Of a stretch of DNA of 22,647 bases, positions 1,941 to 22,105 are shown in pieces (position 1 is the first letter of the stretch; every line of letters starts with the position of its first letter). The notes below the pieces were generated by a model. It worked only from the letters and a program-made list of their open reading frames with translations. It was not told the origin of the DNA and did no database searches. This DNA comes from a virus: IMG/VR virus record IMGVR_UViG_3300006749_000158, positions 1-22,647 of that record, one strand, 5' to 3'. The position numbers were made by a program, and so were the translations under genes.

Positions 1941-2438
1941 TTAGAACGGTGAAGCTTCAGCTGTTGTAGCTGTTTTAGGCTTTCTACCTTCCATGTATTT
2001 TTCTGCTGCAGCTTTAATATTAGCTATACGGTCTTCTGTATAATTATCAACTACATTTTGGAAAGGAGCAGCAGGTGCTACCTTTTGACATACTTCTGCA
2101 TATCCATTTTCATTCTTATAAAACAATACTTGTAGCTTTTTACCTTTTAATCCATCAGGGGTATCATCTACTGAAATTGTTTTCTTTCCATCATCGCTAG
2201 TACCTTCTTCTAAAATAGTAGGATTAGCACTTCTAATCATATTAGATACACTAAATTCTACACCATCTTGGCCTCTAGCTTCCCATATTCTACATTTAAG
2301 TGTTTCAGGATAATCTTCAAACCATAAATCTACAAAACCTGAACCATTAAAGTCCCCACGTTTTGCTTGACTTATTGTTACATTCTTCCAACCTTCACCA
2401 AATGAACTTCCTGTACTTTCTGTTATAGTAATTGCCAT
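1941..2438 (-). CDS. Probable single-stranded DNA-binding protein
   Basis: 165 residues. The middle looks beta-rich with alternating hydrophobics (for example FVDLWFEDY, LKCRIWEARG, LQVLFYKNENGYAEV), compatible with an OB-type or similar barrel. The C-terminal 30 residues are low-complexity and end in SPF; a terminal Phe after a flexible tail is typical of phage and bacterial SSBs. It lies only 3 bases downstream of the Sak4-like recombinase and upstream of the primase-helicase, the usual place for an SSB; Sak4 recombinases work with a cognate SSB (shown for phage HK620). The tail is less acidic than in classical SSBs. Start ATG at 2438 follows AAGGAGAATAAGTA. The function rests mainly on context and tail. 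Confidence 0.5.
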   Translation of the reverse strand: MAITITESTGSSFGEGWKNVTISQAKRGDFNGSGFVDLWFEDYPETLKCRIWEARGQDGVEFSVSNMIRSANPTILEEGTSDDGKKTISVDDTPDGLKGKKLQVLFYKNENGYAEVCQKVAPAAPFQNVVDNYTEDRIANIKAAAEKYMEGRKPKTATTAEASPF

Positions 2439-2441
2439 TAC

Positions 2442-3200
2442 TTATTCTCCTTGTGTTTTATTATTAATTAATGTTTTACAACTAAGTGTTTTACCACTAC
2501 CAGGTTCTCCTATAATAAGAATCTTTGCTGAATCCCAGCCTTTCTTCTTTATCACATCAAGTATTATCTGATAGTCTTGAGGCATTTCAGGTTCTAAAGC
2601 TTGACTTCTATCTTTTGCATGACAGAAATGTTCATCTCTAGCTGTTACCCAAACATATTCTCTTTCACCTTTCTTATTTTTCTTAACTTTAGTATATAAT
2701 ACAAAGTCAAACCATTTACCGACATCTACCTTAGTAGAGCCTTCGATATATGGCATCATTCGCAATACACCATTTTCATTGTCTTGTTCTGCTTTAGAAT
2801 GACAATTAACTATTAAACTACATGGTATAGAGTTAGTAAAAGCAAAGAAACTATCTAGTTTATCCTTTAACTTACCCCATTGCTGTAGTTTTAACGCATC
2901 TTGTGAGCCTTTTAACTCTCTTGCGTATTTCTTAGCCATCTCACTAGCTGTATCAATGACCATACATTCTACTTTATGGCCATCTTTAGGCACAACTTTT
3001 AAAGATGTCTGATTTACTTTAACACCATCTATATCTACAACTGATTCAACTCTTTCACGAGTCCACAGCTGTGCTATAAATGATGAAAAGTCTGAGAATG
3101 TATTAAACTCAAGTGGAGCATATCCAAACATTTGTTTAATACTATCTCTACTTCCTAGTGATTTATAACCATTTTCTAGGTCAACATATAGTGTTTTCAT
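2442..3200 (-). CDS. Sak4-like phage recombinase ATPase with circularly permuted P-loop
   Basis: 252 residues of the RecA-related Sak4 family (single-strand annealing recombinases of phages). Visible motifs: MKTLYVDLENGYKSLG (1-16), the strand normally just after the P-loop helix; VECMVID (77-83, Walker B-like, D83); LIVNCHSK (129-136, sensor-like); and HAKDR (194-198) with LEPEMPQDYQIILDVI, the usual end of the family. After that canonical end, the protein continues as AKILIIGEPGSGKTLSCKTL (225-244), a perfect Walker A strand, loop and helix. In ordinary members this is the N-terminus. Joining the C-terminus to the N-terminus restores the normal order. No P-loop is encoded upstream of the ATG: 3201-3279 is AT-rich and non-coding. 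The start at 3200 has AAGGAA about 9 bases upstream. Family call is strong; that the protein folds and works as a permuted ATPase is inference. Confidence 0.82.
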   Translation of the reverse strand: MKTLYVDLENGYKSLGSRDSIKQMFGYAPLEFNTFSDFSSFIAQLWTRERVESVVDIDGVKVNQTSLKVVPKDGHKVECMVIDTASEMAKKYARELKGSQDALKLQQWGKLKDKLDSFFAFTNSIPCSLIVNCHSKAEQDNENGVLRMMPYIEGSTKVDVGKWFDFVLYTKVKKNKKGEREYVWVTARDEHFCHAKDRSQALEPEMPQDYQIILDVIKKKGWDSAKILIIGEPGSGKTLSCKTLINNKTQGE

Positions 3201-3279
3201 ACGTTATTATTTCCTTTTTATTTGATTTTTAGTAAGTCTTAAATTTACAATTACTTATATAATAATAAAAGAAATATTA

Positions 3280-3483
3280 CTAACTTGCATTATATGTATA
3301 CTTAGCATAACCCTTTTTAGGTACAATACTAGTCTCAATATCATAACCTTGCTTACGAAGATTAAATATTAACGCACCTAACCTAAAACTTCCATATTTT
3401 TCTAAAGCCTCAAGTGGTGTTATACTACCATGTACTTGTAAGTGAGTAAGCACTTTTTCTTGTTTACTTATTTTCTTGTCCAT
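3280..3483 (-). CDS. Small winged helix-turn-helix protein (HTH_39 type)
   Basis: 67 residues matching the small phage/prophage helix-turn-helix domain HTH_39: KQEKVLTHLQVHGSITPLEALEKYG, then FRLGALIFNLRKQGYDIET and a short beta wing (PKKGYAKYTYNA). This is essentially a stand-alone DNA-binding domain with no partner domain, consistent with a small transcription or replication-control protein. AAGGAG lies 6-7 bases before the ATG. The start sits inside the end of the 51-residue gene upstream, suggesting translational coupling. Its target is unknown. The 79 bases after its stop hold no gene and only the ribosome site of the Sak4-like gene. Confidence 0.75.
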   Translation of the reverse strand: MDKKISKQEKVLTHLQVHGSITPLEALEKYGSFRLGALIFNLRKQGYDIETSIVPKKGYAKYTYNAS

Positions 3484-3619
3484 AATACTCCTTTGCTGTT
3501 ATTTTATTGTCTTTAATAGTATTCCAATTGACTGACTTAGGAAGATTATCCCAGTCATATCCTAAATCATAACCGTAATCTGATAGCCAATCTTGTGCTA
3601 CATCTTTTACTCTACCCAT
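3464..3619 (-). CDS. Small overlapping gene, unknown function (51 residues)
   Basis: A 51-codon frame beginning MGRVKDVAQDWLSDYGYDLG and ending YYGQENK. The start ATG lies inside the last codons of the 85-residue gene (overlap 3607-3619) and the end overlaps the HTH gene start by 20 bases, so three genes are chained by overlaps. GGAG sits 9 bases upstream of the ATG. The protein is acidic and aromatic (three Trp, six Tyr) with no recognised domain. It fills what would otherwise be a gap, which together with the ribosome site supports it being real. Confidence 0.65.
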   Translation of the reverse strand: MGRVKDVAQDWLSDYGYDLGYDWDNLPKSVNWNTIKDNKITAKEYYGQENK

Positions 3620-3874: not shown

Positions 3875-4735
3875 TTAGAATATATATCTTATTGTTTGCC
3901 ATGGTATGTTGTGATAATGTAGATTCTCAAACTTTTTAATGTAATCTTTCTTTAATCTATAGTAGTAACGTATATTATCACCTCCATATTCAGACGTTTT
4001 ATCTTCCTGTAAGCTTGGATTCCACAAGAAATTTTCACCAGGTACATCATTATCTATATTATATTGATGCATTTCTTTATTATGAGTTAGAAATATACAT
4101 TCTGCTTTGATTTTATCTTTGATACTATCATCTACAATAGCATTTACTAATGTAAATAGCTCTTTATAATCTTGAACAAAGTCTTTATACATAATAATAG
4201 GTGAATAATTTAGATGTACATCGTACCCAGCTTCATAAAAATCATTAACAGCTTTAAGTTTGTCTATAATTTTGCTTGTGCCAGGCTCTAGTACATCAGA
4301 CATTACTTGTGGCATTACACTAAATCGTATTCTAACCTTACGATTAGCGTTATATTTTAATAAATGTTTATTTACATACTTAGTTGCTGCTGTACCCATA
4401 GCTTTATCATTATTTTTAAAGTAATCAAATAGTTTTTCCCATTCGTGATACTTTGCATGGGCTACATAGTCTTCGTTGCAGCTAAAATCATAAGTATAAT
4501 ATGTTTCGTGTGTTTGATTAGGCTCTTTAGGCCAATCAAGTAGCCATAAATGTCTATCAAGAGCATCTAATATTGCATTTGTATTCTTAGCAATTGCTAA
4601 TCCATGCTTATTATGTCTTCGCATATAACAATAACTACATTTATATATACAGCCATAGCCAAAACTGGGCGTTATATAGTCACTACTACGACCTGAAGGT
4701 CGAATAATCATTGATTTTCTATTTATATATTTCAT
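3875..4735 (-). CDS. Radical SAM protein related to spore photoproduct lyase (DNA repair photolyase-like)
   Basis: 286 residues. Near the N-terminus, GYGCIYKCSYCYMRRH contains the radical SAM Cx3Cx2C motif (C29, C33, C36) in the arrangement of spore photoproduct lyase SplB: Gly-Cys, then aromatic residues around the second and third cysteines. The rest fits the partial TIM barrel of that family (RIRFSVMPQVMSDVLEPGTS, HLNYSPIIMY). C86 in the DFSCNED context could be the hydrogen-donor-type cysteine of SPL, but this is speculative. Enzymes of this type split a thymine dimer photoproduct using S-adenosylmethionine and a 4Fe-4S cluster. An upstream in-frame ATG at 4762 exists, but CAGGAG lies just before the ATG at 4735 and the upstream ATG is inside an inverted repeat, so 4735 is preferred. 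The substrate in this phage is not known. Confidence 0.8.
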   Translation of the reverse strand: MKYINRKSMIIRPSGRSSDYITPSFGYGCIYKCSYCYMRRHNKHGLAIAKNTNAILDALDRHLWLLDWPKEPNQTHETYYTYDFSCNEDYVAHAKYHEWEKLFDYFKNNDKAMGTAATKYVNKHLLKYNANRKVRIRFSVMPQVMSDVLEPGTSKIIDKLKAVNDFYEAGYDVHLNYSPIIMYKDFVQDYKELFTLVNAIVDDSIKDKIKAECIFLTHNKEMHQYNIDNDVPGENFLWNPSLQEDKTSEYGGDNIRYYYRLKKDYIKKFENLHYHNIPWQTIRYIF

Positions 4736-4752
4736 TCTTACTCCTGTATAAG

Positions 4753-4804
4753 GGGTCTGCAACCTTGGCTATCAGCTATTCGTCACAGGATTTACTGCAG
4801 ACCC
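4753..4804 (-). promoter_or_regulatory. Structured leader in front of the radical SAM gene
   Basis: A 9-bp perfect inverted repeat (GGGTCTGCA at 4753-4761, TGCAGACCC at 4796-4804) encloses a 34-base loop that contains a weak inner CCT/AGG pairing. It occupies nearly the whole gap between the 83-residue gene and the radical SAM gene, and its stem ends just before the AGGAG ribosome site. No U-run follows on either strand. Position and size match the other early-gene leaders. The function is inferred. Confidence 0.5.
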
Positions 4805-9501: not shown

Positions 9502-10232
9502 TGAGACATTACACAGTAAATAAGTTTAAGCATACTGTATATGAAGATGATACAGAAGTGCCATCTAATCTAATTGTAAAAGAAGATTGGCGTACTGGAA
9601 ATATAGGAGATTGGGTAAGAGCAGACGATGACTGCATTATTCAAATACTTCGTAAAGGTAAGATGCTTAGAAAAAAAGGTACTCGGTATTATGTAGGAAC
9701 ATGTACAGGTACTTTTTTAGTTTTACCTAAAACAAAGATGGATACAGACCGTAGGTCTAATATATACTCTTTTGGTGGGCATGAAACACCTGAGGAAGTA
9801 GTAAAGAATAGAAAAGAATTAACAGCCAATGAGGAACTTTTTGTTAAGTTCATGGCTATAGATAAAGATATGCCAGAGGAAGCGTATGTTAAAGCGTTTC
9901 CTACAAATAATAAAAGGTATGCTAGAATTAAAGCTGCTAACCTTTTACAAACTGAGAGGATAAGAACTCGCATGAAAGAAGACTTAAAACCAACCTTAGA
10001 TGAATTAGGTATAGATGATAGAATGGTTCTAAGTGGAATTAAAGAAGAAGCTGTTAATGCTGAAAAATCAGATACTAGGCTTAAAGCTTTATTTAAATTA
10101 TCTGATATACTTGACTTAGAAGAAAAGACTACTACTAAAGTCCAACAAGTTACAGGAGCTGTTTTCCAAGGATTTACTGATGATATGATAGAACCTGTAG
10201 AAAAATTAAAAGAAATATCTGATGGAAAATAG
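9501..10232 (+). CDS. terS: Terminase small subunit
   Basis: 243 residues. The DNA-recognition subunit that selects phage DNA for packaging with TerL. From about residue 108, LTANEELFVKFMAIDKDMPEEAYVKAFPTNN and KAANLLQTERIRTRMKEDLKPTLDELGIDD form the helix-turn-helix and following helices typical of small terminases (the terminase_2/Nu1-like pattern). Residues after this, LKALFKLSDILDLEEKT, are the usual oligomerisation-type helix. The first 100 residues are an extra N-terminal region of unknown role (KGTRYYVGTCTGTFLVLP). It precedes TerL with one small gene between, as expected. Confidence 0.8.
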   Translation: MRHYTVNKFKHTVYEDDTEVPSNLIVKEDWRTGNIGDWVRADDDCIIQILRKGKMLRKKGTRYYVGTCTGTFLVLPKTKMDTDRRSNIYSFGGHETPEEVVKNRKELTANEELFVKFMAIDKDMPEEAYVKAFPTNNKRYARIKAANLLQTERIRTRMKEDLKPTLDELGIDDRMVLSGIKEEAVNAEKSDTRLKALFKLSDILDLEEKTTTKVQQVTGAVFQGFTDDMIEPVEKLKEISDGK

Positions 10233-10377
10233 TAAGCCTAAGCTAAAGGCAGTTAGACTTGAAACTCCATTTGGTGCTATCGAAAGTGATAGTGGTAATC
10301 ATTCTGTAGACGTTATTACTATAGGTGCATTATTAATTGTACTATATATATGCAAAAGGATATATTTTGGTAGATGA
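10222..10377 (+). CDS. Small single-TM protein between the terminase genes
   Basis: 51 residues: MENSKPKLKAVRLETPFGAI, then ESDSGNHSVD and a hydrophobic segment VITIGALLIVLYICKRIYFG ending in basic residues. The start overlaps the end of the TerS gene by 11 bases. The protein has one transmembrane helix with a positively charged end. Small membrane proteins at this place are common in phages with this gene order; the role is unknown. A pinholin or spanin-like role is conceivable, but no signal or lipobox is present. Confidence 0.6.
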   Translation: MENSKPKLKAVRLETPFGAIESDSGNHSVDVITIGALLIVLYICKRIYFGR

Positions 10378-10396: not shown

Positions 10397-11956
10397 ATGG
10401 CTAATGTTAATTTTAATAATGTATCTAAAGCAGAAGAAGCATTAAGGCTTGCTAGCAAAGATAATATTGCATTTGGAAAATTATTTTTACAAGATGACTT
10501 TCTTAGAAGTGAAACTCCACCTTTCCATTATGAAATAGCCGATGTAATTTCAAACGAAGAACATAAGCAAGTAGCTATAATACTTCCTAGGGGTCATGGT
10601 AAAACAGTAATGACTAAGTGTGATATACTTAAATCATTTTGTTTTGCAGATAAAAATAATCCTTTGTTTTATGGATGGGTATCAGCTACTGCTAAATTAG
10701 CTACAGGTAATATGGATTATATTAAATACCATATAGAATTTAACGAACGGATTAATTATTATTTTGGTAACTTAAAGGGTAATAAATGGACCGAAACTGA
10801 TGTGGAGCTTACAAATGGATGCAAACTTATTTCTAAATCGAATATCTCAGGGATTCGTGGAGGTGCTAAACTCCATAAAAGATACGACCTTATTATTCTG
10901 GACGACTTTGAAGACGAAAACAATACGATTACACCAGAAGCTAGAGCCAAAAACTCCAACCTTATCACTGCTGTGGTCTTTCCTGCACTTGAACCTCATA
11001 CTGGTAGGCTACGTATTAATGGGACTCCTGTTCATTTTGATTCTTTTATTAACAACCTTATTATTAATCACGAGCAGTCTAAAAAAGAAAACAAAGATTT
11101 TTCGTGGAAGGTAGTTCTTAAAAAAGCAATAGAAGATGATGGCACTATGTTATGGGATTCATGGTTTGGTGCTAAGGAAATGGAACGTAAAAAGAAATTC
11201 TACGCTGATAGTGGACAACCCCAAAAGTTTTTCCAAGAATATATGATGGAAGTTCAGAGTGAAGATGATGCTATGTTTACTCGTGACCATATAAAATTTT
11301 ATAAAGGTAACTTTATGCATGATGCTGATTCAGGTTTAGGTTATCTTATACCTGACGATGGAGATGCACAGCCTGTAAATGTATATGTAGGAGTTGACCC
11401 AGCAACTGATAGTGCAAGAAGAGAAGCTGATTATAGTGTACTACTTGCAGTTGCAGTTGATTTAAATAATAATGTATATATATTAGAATATTTAAGAAAA
11501 AGAGGAATACCTGTATTAGGTATACCTGGTGAAGATAAGAAAGGAATAGTAGATTATATTTTTGATTTTGCGTCTAAGTATTCTCCACAGCTATTTACTA
11601 TAGAAGATACTGCAATGAGTAAGCCAGTATTCCAAGCATTAAGAGCCGAGATGCGTAGACGTAATAATTTTGATGTACGTTTTAAAGAAGAGTTGCCAGG
11701 AACTAGACTATCTAAAAGAGATAGGATACAAGGTATTCTTGCACAACGATTTGCAATAGGTCAAATACATTTAAAGAAAGATATGTATGATTTACAAAGA
11801 GAGATAATAACATTTGGTCCACGTATGAGTCACGATGATACTATTGATGCACTTGCATATGCATGTAAGTATGCACAACCACCTATTGGAATAAAAGAAA
11901 ATAAAGATAGTTATTATAAACATAGACCAAAAGCTAAAAGCTGGGTAACTGCATAA
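10397..11956 (+). CDS. terL: Terminase large subunit
   Basis: 519 residues. The motor that cuts and pumps DNA into the procapsid. ATPase domain: Walker A LPRGHGKT (63-70), Walker B LIILDDFED (165-173), and a coupling-type RINGTP (206-211). Nuclease domain with RNase H fold: VGVDPATDS (331-339, Asp334), FTIEDTA (400-406, Glu403) and SHDDTIDALAYA (478-489, Asp480/481). Length and motif order are those of a complete terminase. The region 10900-11060 is locally less AT-biased, which may reflect constraint. The start has only a weak purine run (AGAAGAGG) upstream. The gene abuts the holin-like gene, whose ATG falls at its last base (TAATG). Confidence 0.95.
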   Translation: MANVNFNNVSKAEEALRLASKDNIAFGKLFLQDDFLRSETPPFHYEIADVISNEEHKQVAIILPRGHGKTVMTKCDILKSFCFADKNNPLFYGWVSATAKLATGNMDYIKYHIEFNERINYYFGNLKGNKWTETDVELTNGCKLISKSNISGIRGGAKLHKRYDLIILDDFEDENNTITPEARAKNSNLITAVVFPALEPHTGRLRINGTPVHFDSFINNLIINHEQSKKENKDFSWKVVLKKAIEDDGTMLWDSWFGAKEMERKKKFYADSGQPQKFFQEYMMEVQSEDDAMFTRDHIKFYKGNFMHDADSGLGYLIPDDGDAQPVNVYVGVDPATDSARREADYSVLLAVAVDLNNNVYILEYLRKRGIPVLGIPGEDKKGIVDYIFDFASKYSPQLFTIEDTAMSKPVFQALRAEMRRRNNFDVRFKEELPGTRLSKRDRIQGILAQRFAIGQIHLKKDMYDLQREIITFGPRMSHDDTIDALAYACKYAQPPIGIKENKDSYYKHRPKAKSWVTA

Positions 11957-12303
11957 TGGATATATTTGCATTATTAGAAACCTTTGGACTTCCTGTCGCA
12001 GGAGTGATAGCTCTAGCTTTCTATATTTCCAAAAAAGATAAACAAACAGAAAAAGAACAAAAATGGATAAGAGAAGAACTGTCTAAAGAAAATAGAGAAT
12101 CATTCCAACGACTAGAAGATATTATAGATAAAGACTTTAGAGGTATAGTTATTGGATTAATAAATGCACAAAAAGAAACTCAAATTAAAATAAGTGAATT
12201 AAATAGAAGTTACAAAGCTATCGTAGAAATTATGTGTATGCTAGAAGACAATGGTTTAAAAAAGAAATGGCTTGAGAAAAAAAACATAGAAGAAGACTGG
12301 TAA
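11956..12303 (+). CDS. Holin-like protein (one TM segment plus coiled coil)
   Basis: 115 residues. LLETFGLPVAGVIALAFYISKK near the N-terminus is a single transmembrane helix, and the rest is a charged coiled coil (EKEQKWIREELSKENRESFQRLEDIID and on to the end). This layout matches BhlA/UviB-type holin-like proteins, and a holin beside the terminase genes is common in podoviruses. The start overlaps TerL by one base. No endolysin is seen in the window, so lysis function is inferred from shape and place only. Confidence 0.55.
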   Translation: MDIFALLETFGLPVAGVIALAFYISKKDKQTEKEQKWIREELSKENRESFQRLEDIIDKDFRGIVIGLINAQKETQIKISELNRSYKAIVEIMCMLEDNGLKKKWLEKKNIEEDW

Positions 12304-12341
12304 ACTTTATTATATTACGTTTAAAATATTTAAGGAAATTA

Positions 12342-12521
12342 ATGAAAGAATCTATAAAGGGCGTTAGCATTAAAGGGTTAAATAAAAGACAGCAAAATGC
12401 TATGAAAAGTCATAGTAAACATCATACTGCAAAACATATTAGAAGTATGGTTGCAATGATGAAAAAAGGAAAAACTTTTACTGCTTCTCACAAAGCTGCT
12501 ATAAAAAAAGTTGGCAAATAA
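12342..12521 (+). CDS. Small very basic protein before the portal gene
   Basis: 59 residues, rich in Lys and His with almost no acidic residues: GLNKRQQNAMKSHSKHHTAKHIRSM, MKKGKTFTASHKAA and a terminal KKVGK. AAGGAA precedes the ATG, and the stop abuts the portal ATG at 12522 with no gap. The composition suggests nucleic-acid binding or packing with the head. A similar K/H-rich protein at this site recurs in related uncultured phages as far as I recall. Function unknown. Confidence 0.65.
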   Translation: MKESIKGVSIKGLNKRQQNAMKSHSKHHTAKHIRSMVAMMKKGKTFTASHKAAIKKVGK

Positions 12522-14789
12522 ATGGCAAAAAGAACTGATAAAACTGCACAAAAAGTTAAACGATTATACGAAAATTCTAGAACAGAGAAAAGAATCCAAT
12601 GGGAGTATATTAACCAAAAAGGATTTGATTTTGCTAATGATAATCAATTATCAGAAGAAGAAAGAATTGCTTTAGAAGAACAAGGTATGCCCACATTTAC
12701 TATTAATAGGATTATTCCTGTAGTAGAAATGTTAAATTTTTACGCTACTGCTAAAGACCCAAGATGGCAAGCAGTAGGAAGTGAAGGAAGTGATACAGAT
12801 GTTGCAGCTGTATTTTCAGATGTAGCTGATTATATTTGGTATACATCGCATGGGCAAACACTATTATCAAATGCTATTAATGATGCAATTACAAAATCAC
12901 TAGGATATTTAATGGTAACAGTTGACCCTGATGCCGATAGAGGTATGGGGGAAGTAGTAATAAAACAACCAGAGCCTTTTGATGTTTTTGTAGATAACAA
13001 AACAAGAGATATATTATTTAGAGATGCTGCTTTTATTCTCATTCGCAAACTCCTTCCTAAATCCCATCTTATACAACAATATCCAGATAGTAAAAGAAAA
13101 ATAATGGCAGCATCCTCTAATACAAATAGTTTTGACGATTTATCAGAAAAATCAACAGATAGAACGCAACATGATTTTCATTATAAAGAGATGGGAAGTA
13201 ATGATGTATATGGAGATAAGCGAGATGATGTTGTAGAATTTTTTGAATTATATGAAAAAGAAAAAGTAGCATTTAGAAATGTATTTATGAAAGTTCCACC
13301 TAATCCAGAAATATTAGCACAGATAAAAGCACAAGCTCAAGAACAAGTTGCTAAAATGGAAGTAGAAATGGAAGTTTCTTTAAAAGAAAAAAGTATGCAA
13401 ATGCAAATGGCTGTAGATAACGGAGAAATGCTACCTGAAAGAATGCAGCTTGAAATGCAAAAAGAAACAGAAATGATGATGCAGCAATTAAAATCTTTTG
13501 AGATTGAAGTTACTGCTAGACTTCAAGATGAAAATTCCAGAATTGAAAATGAAGTTATGTCAGATAAAGAATTTAATATTTTACTAAAGGATGAATCATT
13601 TAAATCAAATTTAGTAGAAGCAATTAAATTTCATGAAAATAGAATTAAATTATGTTGTATTGTAGGAGATAAAACTTTATATGAAAAATATCTTCCACTT
13701 ACAGAATATCCAATTATACCTTTCCATTATAAATGGACAGGCACACCATTTCCAATGTCTGCGGTTGCACCTCTTATCGGAAAGCAAAGAGAGCTTAACA
13801 AAGCTCATCAGCTCATGGTGCACAATGCATCGTTGGGGAGCAGTCTTCGTTGGATGTATGAAGAAGGAAGTATTGATACAGATTATTGGGAAAAATATTC
13901 ATCAGCCCCTGGAGCTTTATTGCCAAAAAGAAGTGGGTTTGATGCTCCACAACCAGTAATGCCTTTTCAGTTAAATAATGCATTTTTTAGTTTAACTCAA
14001 ACAGGTAAAGGTGATATGGAATATTTAGCTGGTATATATTCTGCAATGCAAGGCGATACATCTGCATCTGCTGATATGCCTTATCGTGGTATGTTAGCTA
14101 TGGATGAATATGGAACTAGAAGAATTAAATATTGGTTAAAGAATTGTATTGAGCCTGCACTTAGACAAGTAGGAGAGCTTGTAAAACAATATAGTCAAAA
14201 TGTATATACTGCTCATAAAGTGTTTAAAATTGTTCAACCTGATAGCATTGAAGAAGAAAAGCAAGTAGAAATAAATGTTCCAGTTTATAATGATTATGGA
14301 GAAGTTATAGATAAATATATGGATTACTCTATGGCTAAGTTTGATATAAGAATACAAGCTGGTTCTACATTACCTGTTAATAGATGGGCATACTTAGAAG
14401 AATTAAAACAATTAATGCAGCTAGGAGTTGTAGATGATATTGCAGTTTTAGCTGAAACAGATATTAGAAATAAAGATAAAATTGTACAAAGAAAAAGTTT
14501 ATATTCTCAATTGCAATCTCAACTAGAAAATCTTGAACAAGCAATAACTGATAAAGACGGTACTATTGAAACATTAGAACGTCAATTAGTTCAAGCTGGT
14601 ATTAAAAATAAAGTTATGCAAGGTGCAGTTGAAGTTAATAAAAGAACTGAAGATAGTAAATCTAGCGTATATAAAGAAGAGTTAGAAAGTAAAGCTCAAC
14701 AAAAGATGTTGCAGAAAAAAATGCAAGATACATCAAAAATGCTAGATGATTTAGAAAAAGTCCAAAGAAATAATTTGGAAAGTGAATAA
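12522..14789 (+). CDS. Portal protein (P22-like)
   Basis: 755 residues. It forms the dodecameric ring through which DNA enters and leaves the head. The early region (INRIIPVVEMLNFYATAKDP, then ITKSLGYLMVTVD and PEPFDVFVDNKTRD) fits P22-type portals, and the central RELNKAHQLMVHNASLGSS and YRGMLAMDEYGTRRIKYWL match the stem and crown region. Residues about 262-345 are a long Met/Gln/Glu-rich coiled coil inserted between the wing strands. The C-terminal 100 residues are another coiled coil, likely the barrel. The scaffold gene follows 50 bases later. There is no strong ribosome site; translation probably continues from the abutting small basic gene. Confidence 0.88.
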   Translation: MAKRTDKTAQKVKRLYENSRTEKRIQWEYINQKGFDFANDNQLSEEERIALEEQGMPTFTINRIIPVVEMLNFYATAKDPRWQAVGSEGSDTDVAAVFSDVADYIWYTSHGQTLLSNAINDAITKSLGYLMVTVDPDADRGMGEVVIKQPEPFDVFVDNKTRDILFRDAAFILIRKLLPKSHLIQQYPDSKRKIMAASSNTNSFDDLSEKSTDRTQHDFHYKEMGSNDVYGDKRDDVVEFFELYEKEKVAFRNVFMKVPPNPEILAQIKAQAQEQVAKMEVEMEVSLKEKSMQMQMAVDNGEMLPERMQLEMQKETEMMMQQLKSFEIEVTARLQDENSRIENEVMSDKEFNILLKDESFKSNLVEAIKFHENRIKLCCIVGDKTLYEKYLPLTEYPIIPFHYKWTGTPFPMSAVAPLIGKQRELNKAHQLMVHNASLGSSLRWMYEEGSIDTDYWEKYSSAPGALLPKRSGFDAPQPVMPFQLNNAFFSLTQTGKGDMEYLAGIYSAMQGDTSASADMPYRGMLAMDEYGTRRIKYWLKNCIEPALRQVGELVKQYSQNVYTAHKVFKIVQPDSIEEEKQVEINVPVYNDYGEVIDKYMDYSMAKFDIRIQAGSTLPVNRWAYLEELKQLMQLGVVDDIAVLAETDIRNKDKIVQRKSLYSQLQSQLENLEQAITDKDGTIETLERQLVQAGIKNKVMQGAVEVNKRTEDSKSSVYKEELESKAQQKMLQKKMQDTSKMLDDLEKVQRNNLESE

Positions 14790-20863: not shown

Positions 20864-22105
20864 ATGCCTAAGTTAGGTTTAGGTACAGGAATAGGTCGTT
20901 CAGGTATTGTTACTCCAGGTGTTGTAACAGATAGTCTGGTTATGAAACATATGTATCCTGCAGGAGCAGTACAGCCAGTAAGTGATGGTGCTGCATATTT
21001 TGATAGTACTGATGATTACATAGATTGCGGAGCATCTAACAGTATTATAACAGGAACAAATGTTACATATGCTTGTTGGGTTAATGTATCTGATGCTGAC
21101 CAAGCTCGTTTAATAACTTCTCAAAAAGGTTCAGGCTCAACAAACCTTTCTTTAGGCATACATAATAACAATGGTGCCAATGTAGAAGGATATATTACTT
21201 TAATAGTTTGGGATGGTTCAAGTAATCATCGTTATGTTAATTTTGATGCCGACATAAATGATAATAAATGGCATCATATAGTTGCTACAACTACATCTTC
21301 AGCACAGAATTTATATTTTGATGGAGCATTAGTAGCAACACAATCACATACGTTTGGAAATTCGGTAAGTTCAAATATATTTACATTAGGTGCTATAAAT
21401 GGTACGAGTGAATTTTTAGGTGGTTATATGGCTAATGTAGGAGTATGGAATAGAGTATTAACTCAAGCAGAAATAAAATCAATTATGTTTAAACAGTATG
21501 CAGATTTAACAACTACTGAAAAAACTAGTTTAGTATCATGGTGGAATTTAGATACAGCTTATGATTCATTTGTTCATAATGAAGCTGGTGGTTCTACTAG
21601 TATAGAAAATATTGCTTTTGACAATCATCATGGTGGTGGGAATATATATGGAAGTGAGCTAATATCTAATGGTGATTTTAGTAATGGAACAACTGGGTGG
21701 AGTAATCAAAGTAATAGTTGGGATGATGCTTTTGAAGTAGATTCTCAAAATAGATTGCATTTACAAGCTAGTTCAGTAGCTTATCCCCAAGTAAATAGTA
21801 CTGGATTTAGTATTACTGGAGGTAAAACTTATAGAATACAATATACTGCTACAAATGTAAGTTCTACTCATAATATGTTTGTTGGTATTTATGATAATGC
21901 ATCTGTAGCTTCTGCTGAATCCCCTTCAGATTATAGTGAACAAATCACAGGAACTGAAACAGTAGATACATATTTTTATGCTACCGACACTGAAACTGTA
22001 TATTTAAAATTATGGATTAATAATAGTGGAACACCTTCAGGAGAGGCCTATTTAAGCAATGTATCGGTAACTGAGGTAAATGGAAATACAGGAAGTTTAA
22101 AATAA
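20864..22105 (+). CDS. LamG-domain and carbohydrate-binding appendage protein
   Basis: 413 residues, probably a surface fibre or decoration protein that binds polysaccharide. Residues about 40-210 are a concanavalin A-like LamG jelly roll: AAYFDSTDDYIDCG, then VTYACWVNV, NKWHHIVATTTSS, NLYFDGALVAT and the closing GYMANVGVWNRVLTQAEIKSIM. Residues about 260-410 are a second jelly roll like CBM4/9-type modules: GSELISNGDFSNGTTGWS, GKTYRIQYTATNV and AYLSNVSVTEV. The first 30 residues (KLGLGTGIGRSGIV) are a Gly-rich attachment region. It is followed at once (TAATG) by a protein with a related second domain. Catalytic residues are not evident. Confidence 0.8.
   Translation: MPKLGLGTGIGRSGIVTPGVVTDSLVMKHMYPAGAVQPVSDGAAYFDSTDDYIDCGASNSIITGTNVTYACWVNVSDADQARLITSQKGSGSTNLSLGIHNNNGANVEGYITLIVWDGSSNHRYVNFDADINDNKWHHIVATTTSSAQNLYFDGALVATQSHTFGNSVSSNIFTLGAINGTSEFLGGYMANVGVWNRVLTQAEIKSIMFKQYADLTTTEKTSLVSWWNLDTAYDSFVHNEAGGSTSIENIAFDNHHGGGNIYGSELISNGDFSNGTTGWSNQSNSWDDAFEVDSQNRLHLQASSVAYPQVNSTGFSITGGKTYRIQYTATNVSSTHNMFVGIYDNASVASAESPSDYSEQITGTETVDTYFYATDTETVYLKLWINNSGTPSGEAYLSNVSVTEVNGNTGSLK

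Follow-up and report, generated by a model that had tools for sequence, protein, structure and literature searches.

A Sak4-like RecA-core ATPase with a naturally circularly permuted motif order in environmental phages

The stretch of DNA analyzed in this work (the window, 22,647 nucleotides, IMG/VR record IMGVR_UViG_3300006749_000158) encodes a homologue of Sak4 in which the order of the motifs is circularly permuted, the Walker A motif being found at the C-terminal end of the protein. The natural circular permutation is confirmed as real and is not an assembly mistake. A sequence-only reading of this gene had proposed a circularly permuted Sak4/RecA-like recombinase, and the proposal is supported by split profile matches, by the occurrence of the same arrangement in ~82 contigs, by selection on the relocated motif, by the grouping of the permuted proteins in one clade and by a confident model of the monomer. 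It is highly probable that the protein is a functional circularly permuted Sak4, derived from one ancestral permutation, with an ATP site completed in cis and an ATP-dependent annealing activity exerted together with an SSB.

Results

Gene and motif layout

The gene is located on the minus strand at positions 2442–3200 (start codon 3198–3200, stop codon 2442–2444) and its product, a permuted Sak4-like (AAA_24) RecA-core ATPase according to its Pfam, PHROG and Sak4-profile matches, comprises 252 residues, with MKTLYVDLENGYKSLG at the N-terminus and KILIIGEPGSGKTLSCKTLINNKTQGE at the C-terminus. A Shine-Dalgarno-like AAGGAAA (3210–3216, minus strand) is found 9 nt 5′ of the ATG, which opens the chain at the strand that follows the P-loop helix. 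This first strand, KTLYVDLE (residues 2–9; 3174–3197, minus strand), aligns with LLFDLE and LIIDTE of conventional Sak4s, and Glu9 presumably occupies, by alignment, the catalytic-glutamate position of RecA and Sak4. It is followed by the Walker B strand CMVIDT (residues 79–84; 2949–2966, minus strand), which carries the invariant D83 and T84, and by the sensor strand IVNCHSK (residues 130–136; 2793–2813, minus strand), whose invariant His134 aligns with the histidine of IVGHRK and ITHE in conventional members. The C-terminal β region with the AKDR motif (residues 184–198; 2607–2651, minus strand) aligns with the GSR of conventional members, which, together with their invariance, makes K196 and R198 a candidate Lys/Arg finger. 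The junction (residues 199–226; 2523–2606, minus strand) consists of the old C-terminal tail, including a helix at residues 210–220, and runs straight into β1. The relocated β1 and Walker A, ILIIGEPGSGKT (residues 227–238; 2487–2522, minus strand), fall within Sak4-profile positions 7–29 and contain Lys237 in the P-loop; the Walker A itself reads GEPGSGKT (residues 231–238) and precedes a helix that closes the chain. The open reading frame, its coordinates and strand, the assignment of ILIIGEPGSGKT to residues 227–238 and the position of Lys237 had all been given correctly in the sequence-only reading. With 252 residues and profile coverage over nearly the whole chain, the protein corresponds to a RecA core of minimal size that lacks the RecA CTD.

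Profile matches in permuted order

The Pfam family AAA_24 (PF13479) matches the protein at 62.9 bits, above its cutoff of 27, its best stretch placing residues 2–198 on profile positions 24–194, and the Sak4-like family PHROG 124 matches it with an E-value of 3.5e-26 in two stretches, residues 3–219 lying on profile positions 66–259. For a dedicated Sak4 profile, 15 conventional sequences with the P-loop at the N-terminus were combined, namely those of HK620 and of N4-like, crAss-like and further phages, and L045. This profile matches the window protein in two domains, residues 2–217 on positions 31–214 (domain E-value 3.7e-12) and residues 225–247 on positions 7–29 (E-value 8.2e-8). These stretches complement each other without overlap, as is required of a circular permutation, and the earlier observation that a P-loop follows the canonical family end and that the chain starts at the strand that should come after it is confirmed. 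The cut separates the P-loop helix from the strand bearing E9.

The same division is found in 10 genomes that carry the permuted gene. In these, PHROG 124 matches at about positions 65–259 first and then, in the C-terminal part, at about 42–65, and AAA_24 matches at about 22–195 and then at about 2–24, the second piece being listed for all but G008; conventional contigs, in contrast, show AAA_24 as a single piece, from 2–195 to 5–195. An N-terminal Walker A is present in all conventional Sak4 members examined and is absent from the window protein. Since homology to Sak4 is clear but the motif order is not that of the family, the protein is classed as a permuted homologue or variant of Sak4 and not as an ordinary member. 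The pattern G.{4}GK[ST] occurs anywhere in just 1.4% of shuffled window proteins, whereas the motif is found at its C-terminal place in 88 of 88 aligned relatives, a set chosen for this motif, and near the C-terminus in an unfiltered survey, so the relocated P-loop is not a product of chance.

Predicted structure

A structure prediction of the monomer, proposed beforehand as a check, was carried out with AlphaFold2. From 23 permuted rows alone it reached a pLDDT of 57.6, and from a mixed alignment it yielded a confident model, with a pLDDT of 91.7 and a pTM of 0.88. The mixed alignment was assembled for this purpose, with the body and the P-loop pieces of conventional members entered as separate rows; version A10 was used, and versions A6–A9, in which MAFFT misplaced the conventional pieces, were set aside. 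Residues 221–240 have a mean pLDDT of 94–95 and the strand at residues 226–231 is paired. As this pairing occurs in a monomer, the modeled C-terminal β1 joins the sheet of its own chain, and it is thus predicted to rebuild the RecA-core fold within that chain. The pairing also speaks indirectly against a C-terminal segment that stays clear of the ATP site, the third observation named beforehand as counting against a permutation.

As the sequence-only reading had considered, the P-loop might instead be real but completed between chains, the C-terminal β1–P-loop–helix segment swapping into the next protomer and making oligomerization obligatory. Sequence alone cannot separate completion in cis from completion in trans, and RecA-type ATP sites are already located between protomers; moreover, the Sak4 of phage 52A forms filaments, the solved assembly consisting of filaments rather than rings (PMC11846896). 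The swap is nonetheless unlikely, given that the monomer model places strand 226–231 in its own sheet with high confidence and that only five residues lie between helix 210–220 and β1, a short junction for such an exchange. An inter-protomer exchange of β1 and the P-loop that coupled ATP binding with filament or ring assembly, unlike the assembly of conventional Sak4, is likewise doubtful.

Regarding known structures, no significant match to a solved RecA-family chain was obtained in a PDB sequence search, and Foldseek against the PDB returned nothing significant, T4 UvsX (3io5) being the sole RecA-family row among the 50 PDB fold matches listed (TMq 0.24, E-value 0.39). The lack of significant hits in the fold search was to be expected, since the method depends on chain order and would tend to overlook a permuted fold. 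The best Foldseek match in BFVD was A0A516LUR7, a protein of 248 residues with 68% identity along its entire length (TM 0.91/0.93); it superimposes sequentially on the whole window protein and represents the permuted family in a public database. Later BFVD matches were phage AAA/RecA-like proteins, several of them annotated as recombinases, with TMq of ~0.5–0.65.

Relationship of the relocated segment to Sak4

We regard as very improbable a non-homologous replacement, in which the original P-loop of a Sak4 would have disappeared and an unrelated one been acquired at the C-terminus. The segment is just ~24 residues long and generic AAA models match it too (AAA_22, E-value 2.2e-4), but its best PHROG, when searched alone, is the Sak4-like phrog_2872 (positions 3–26, E-value 1.3e-4), with a clamp loader at 0.016. 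Its ending, GKTLSLKTL, resembles GKTVSLRTL of Fnu1, GKTRSLKNL of Shewanella phage 3/49 and GKSTSLRNF of phiPSA1, and the breakpoints are exactly complementary, at Sak4-profile positions 29 and 31, which also argues against a replacement.

Relatives and selection

Relatives were sought in scans of IMG/VR with permuted and also with conventional queries. The search for the permuted order in environmental phages, suggested by the sequence-only reading, showed that the permuted form is encoded by ~82 different IMG/VR contigs (a count of contig names). The resulting alignment contains 88 rows, each required to hold GxPGSGKT, in 40 clusters at 90% identity, the lowest identity to the window protein being 40%. 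Residues D7, E9, G11, D83, T84, H134, K196, D197 and R198 are invariant in all 88 rows, as are G231 and P233–T238 of the P-loop, for which the rows were selected. The invariance of the Walker A is thus partly a consequence of row selection, and fairer evidence is provided by an open reading frame survey without the motif filter, which found exactly one P-loop per frame, near the C-terminus, and by the pN/pS ratio, which is 0.10 for the Walker A (residues 230–240) versus 0.36 for the body, with similar synonymous change in both. Such a ratio denotes strong purifying selection on the relocated motif.

No N-terminal P-loop was found in any permuted relative examined, and none is encoded within up to 300 nt 5′ of the gene at 34 loci, in agreement with the earlier statement that the upstream DNA holds no other P-loop. 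An overlooked upstream start that would restore an N-terminal P-loop was considered and rejected, the stop-to-start stretches and the upstream nucleotides being devoid of one. The starts of the permuted relatives are preceded by AGGA-type Shine-Dalgarno sequences, and the complete open reading frames, other than the frameshifted L005, read through the P-loop. A frameshift or assembly join inside the gene and an N-terminal P-loop encoded elsewhere, both named beforehand as observations that would speak against a permutation, were looked for and neither was found. An artefact of assembly, frameshift or gene calling has a negligible probability: the L005 contig is indeed frameshifted before the P-loop and IMG/VR contigs can be chimeric, but the order recurs in ~82 contigs from 40 sequence clusters, behind Shine-Dalgarno sequences at the permuted starts and with synonymous variation running through the junction.

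In a tree built on the bodies alone, with the P-loop columns excluded, the permuted proteins are separated from the rest by a branch with support 95/94. One origin is therefore sufficient to account for this single clade. No permuted relative was found among cultured phages (INPHARED, DNA and protein searches), no bacterial or archaeal carrier in two scans of GTDB representatives, and no intermediate with P-loops at both ends. Some relatives (L326, L408, L387 and L404) have a tail of 30–40 residues after the P-loop helix, ending in TNGVNV; whether the tails of L326 and L408 (KKKLVSVDPKDL and KKKLAPVDPKDL) could be leftovers of a second strand that had been duplicated was considered, and this was rejected on account of the weak likeness.

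One contig, L126 (IMGVR_UViG_3300030098_004195, G010:14000-28000), contains a conventional Sak4 cassette at 2859–3533 and a permuted one at 9571–10332, ~6 kb apart; both cassettes continue with a further small protein gene and a primase/helicase gene. Along the G010 contig, similarity to the conventional lineage stops near 20,870 and similarity to the permuted lineage starts near 20,910. In view of this abrupt switch of lineage, the contig was not accepted as proof of the coexistence of both forms; it may represent a recombinant phage or a chimeric assembly.

Neighboring genes

The next gene downstream (1941–2438, minus strand) encodes a putative SSB-like protein of 165 residues with the tail EASPF. 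It has no Pfam or PHROG family match of its own; the assignment comes from its tail and from two relatives that match phrog_378 SSB weakly (E-values 6.8e-4 and 4.7e-3). Among 56 distinct neighbors, 44 end in P[F/W](D/E), that is, PF or PW with or without one acidic residue, and at most permuted loci the next gene overlaps or lies at most 24 nt away and encodes ~165–200 residues with an acidic tail. The location beside an SSB-like gene, a trait of sak4 genes, is thus shared by the permuted ATPase, the match to the SSB family being weak.

Further downstream, a primase/DnaB-type helicase is encoded at 74–1822 on the minus strand (PF03796, E-value 3.6e-10; phrog_19, 2.3e-21; phrog_16345 primase, 6.7e-18), and a primase/helicase-like protein likewise follows in L126 and L129. 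The helicase at 74–1822 has an unusual Walker A, APPKSMKT, identical in its L126 relative (10965–12704), and the other helicases of L126 and L129 have GPTGSNKT and GPTGSGKT. In addition, the window encodes at 3875–4762 a radical-SAM-type protein that matches spore photoproduct lyase (PF20903, E-value 2.3e-21), which is unusual in a phage. In both lineages the Sak4 cassettes are preceded by adjacent open reading frames that by eye resemble a JAB-type protease and a ThiF/E1-like enzyme (L126, 1127–2784; L129, 2342–3477).

Proposed function and origin

In HK620, Sak4 binds and anneals ssDNA in an ATP-dependent manner, and the SSB of this phage stimulates it by means of its six terminal residues, NDYPPF (PMC5928155). 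Up to 80% of sak4 genes adjoin an SSB gene (PMC5928155), phage sak4 genes being commonly found upstream of ssb (PMC8093625), and roles of the catalytic glutamate and the Walker B aspartate have been described in Sak4 (PMC8093625). From the HK620 precedent and the SSB-like neighbor we infer that the permuted protein works like Sak4; its ATP hydrolysis, annealing activity and oligomeric form are all deduced from homology and gene neighborhood.

In the ancestor, a single event would have shifted the segment coding for β1, the Walker A and its helix from the 5′ end to the 3′ end of the gene, possibly through a DNA-level route such as a tandem duplication whose two ends were later trimmed. The present chain would fold back so that the C-terminal β1 inserts in its own central sheet, restoring an ATP site formed by the Walker A (residues 231–238), D83 of the Walker B, Glu9 and His134, with the putative trans finger K196/R198 provided by a neighboring protomer. 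The ATP-bound protein would then assemble on SSB-coated ssDNA and anneal complementary strands in the manner of the HK620 Sak4 with its SSB, and this annealing may support phage replication and recombination.

Discussion

The protein shares with Sak4 (PF13479 AAA_24, PHROG 124; phages HK620, PA73 and 52A) a homologous RecA-core body with Walker A and B, a glutamate on the strand after the P-loop helix, a conserved Lys/Arg in the C-terminal β region, a length of ~250 residues without the RecA CTD and an SSB-like gene next to it, and differs from it in the C-terminal position of the Walker A, which is N-terminal in all conventional members examined. The RecA-core fold and the layout of the ATP site, known for Sak4, are also those of RecA, UvsX, RadB and Rad51 (PMC8093625, PMC5928155), in which the motif order differs from that of the permuted protein. 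Circular permutation that is natural and inherited is documented for the P-loop NTPase domain of the GTPases RsgA/YjeQ/YloQ and RbgA/YlqF (PMC6912228), a precedent also invoked in the sequence-only reading; these are, however, TRAFAC GTPases of ribosome assembly, outside the RecA group. That reading gave no example of a permuted RecA-fold recombinase, and our survey of mainly open-access literature, with few preprints, likewise turned up no published case of a permuted RecA core.

RecA-like recombinases are recognized by the landmark of a Walker A that opens the core, and order-dependent searches, such as Foldseek against the PDB with nothing significant here, can miss permuted proteins. The permuted protein might also serve recombineering, as a scaffold from which annealases could be split or fused. 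The existence of a stable and diversified permuted lineage indicates that the RecA fold tolerates new termini at the ATP site, after the P-loop helix and before the glutamate strand, and provides a system found in nature for asking whether the order of the chain affects folding, co-translational assembly and the formation of filaments.
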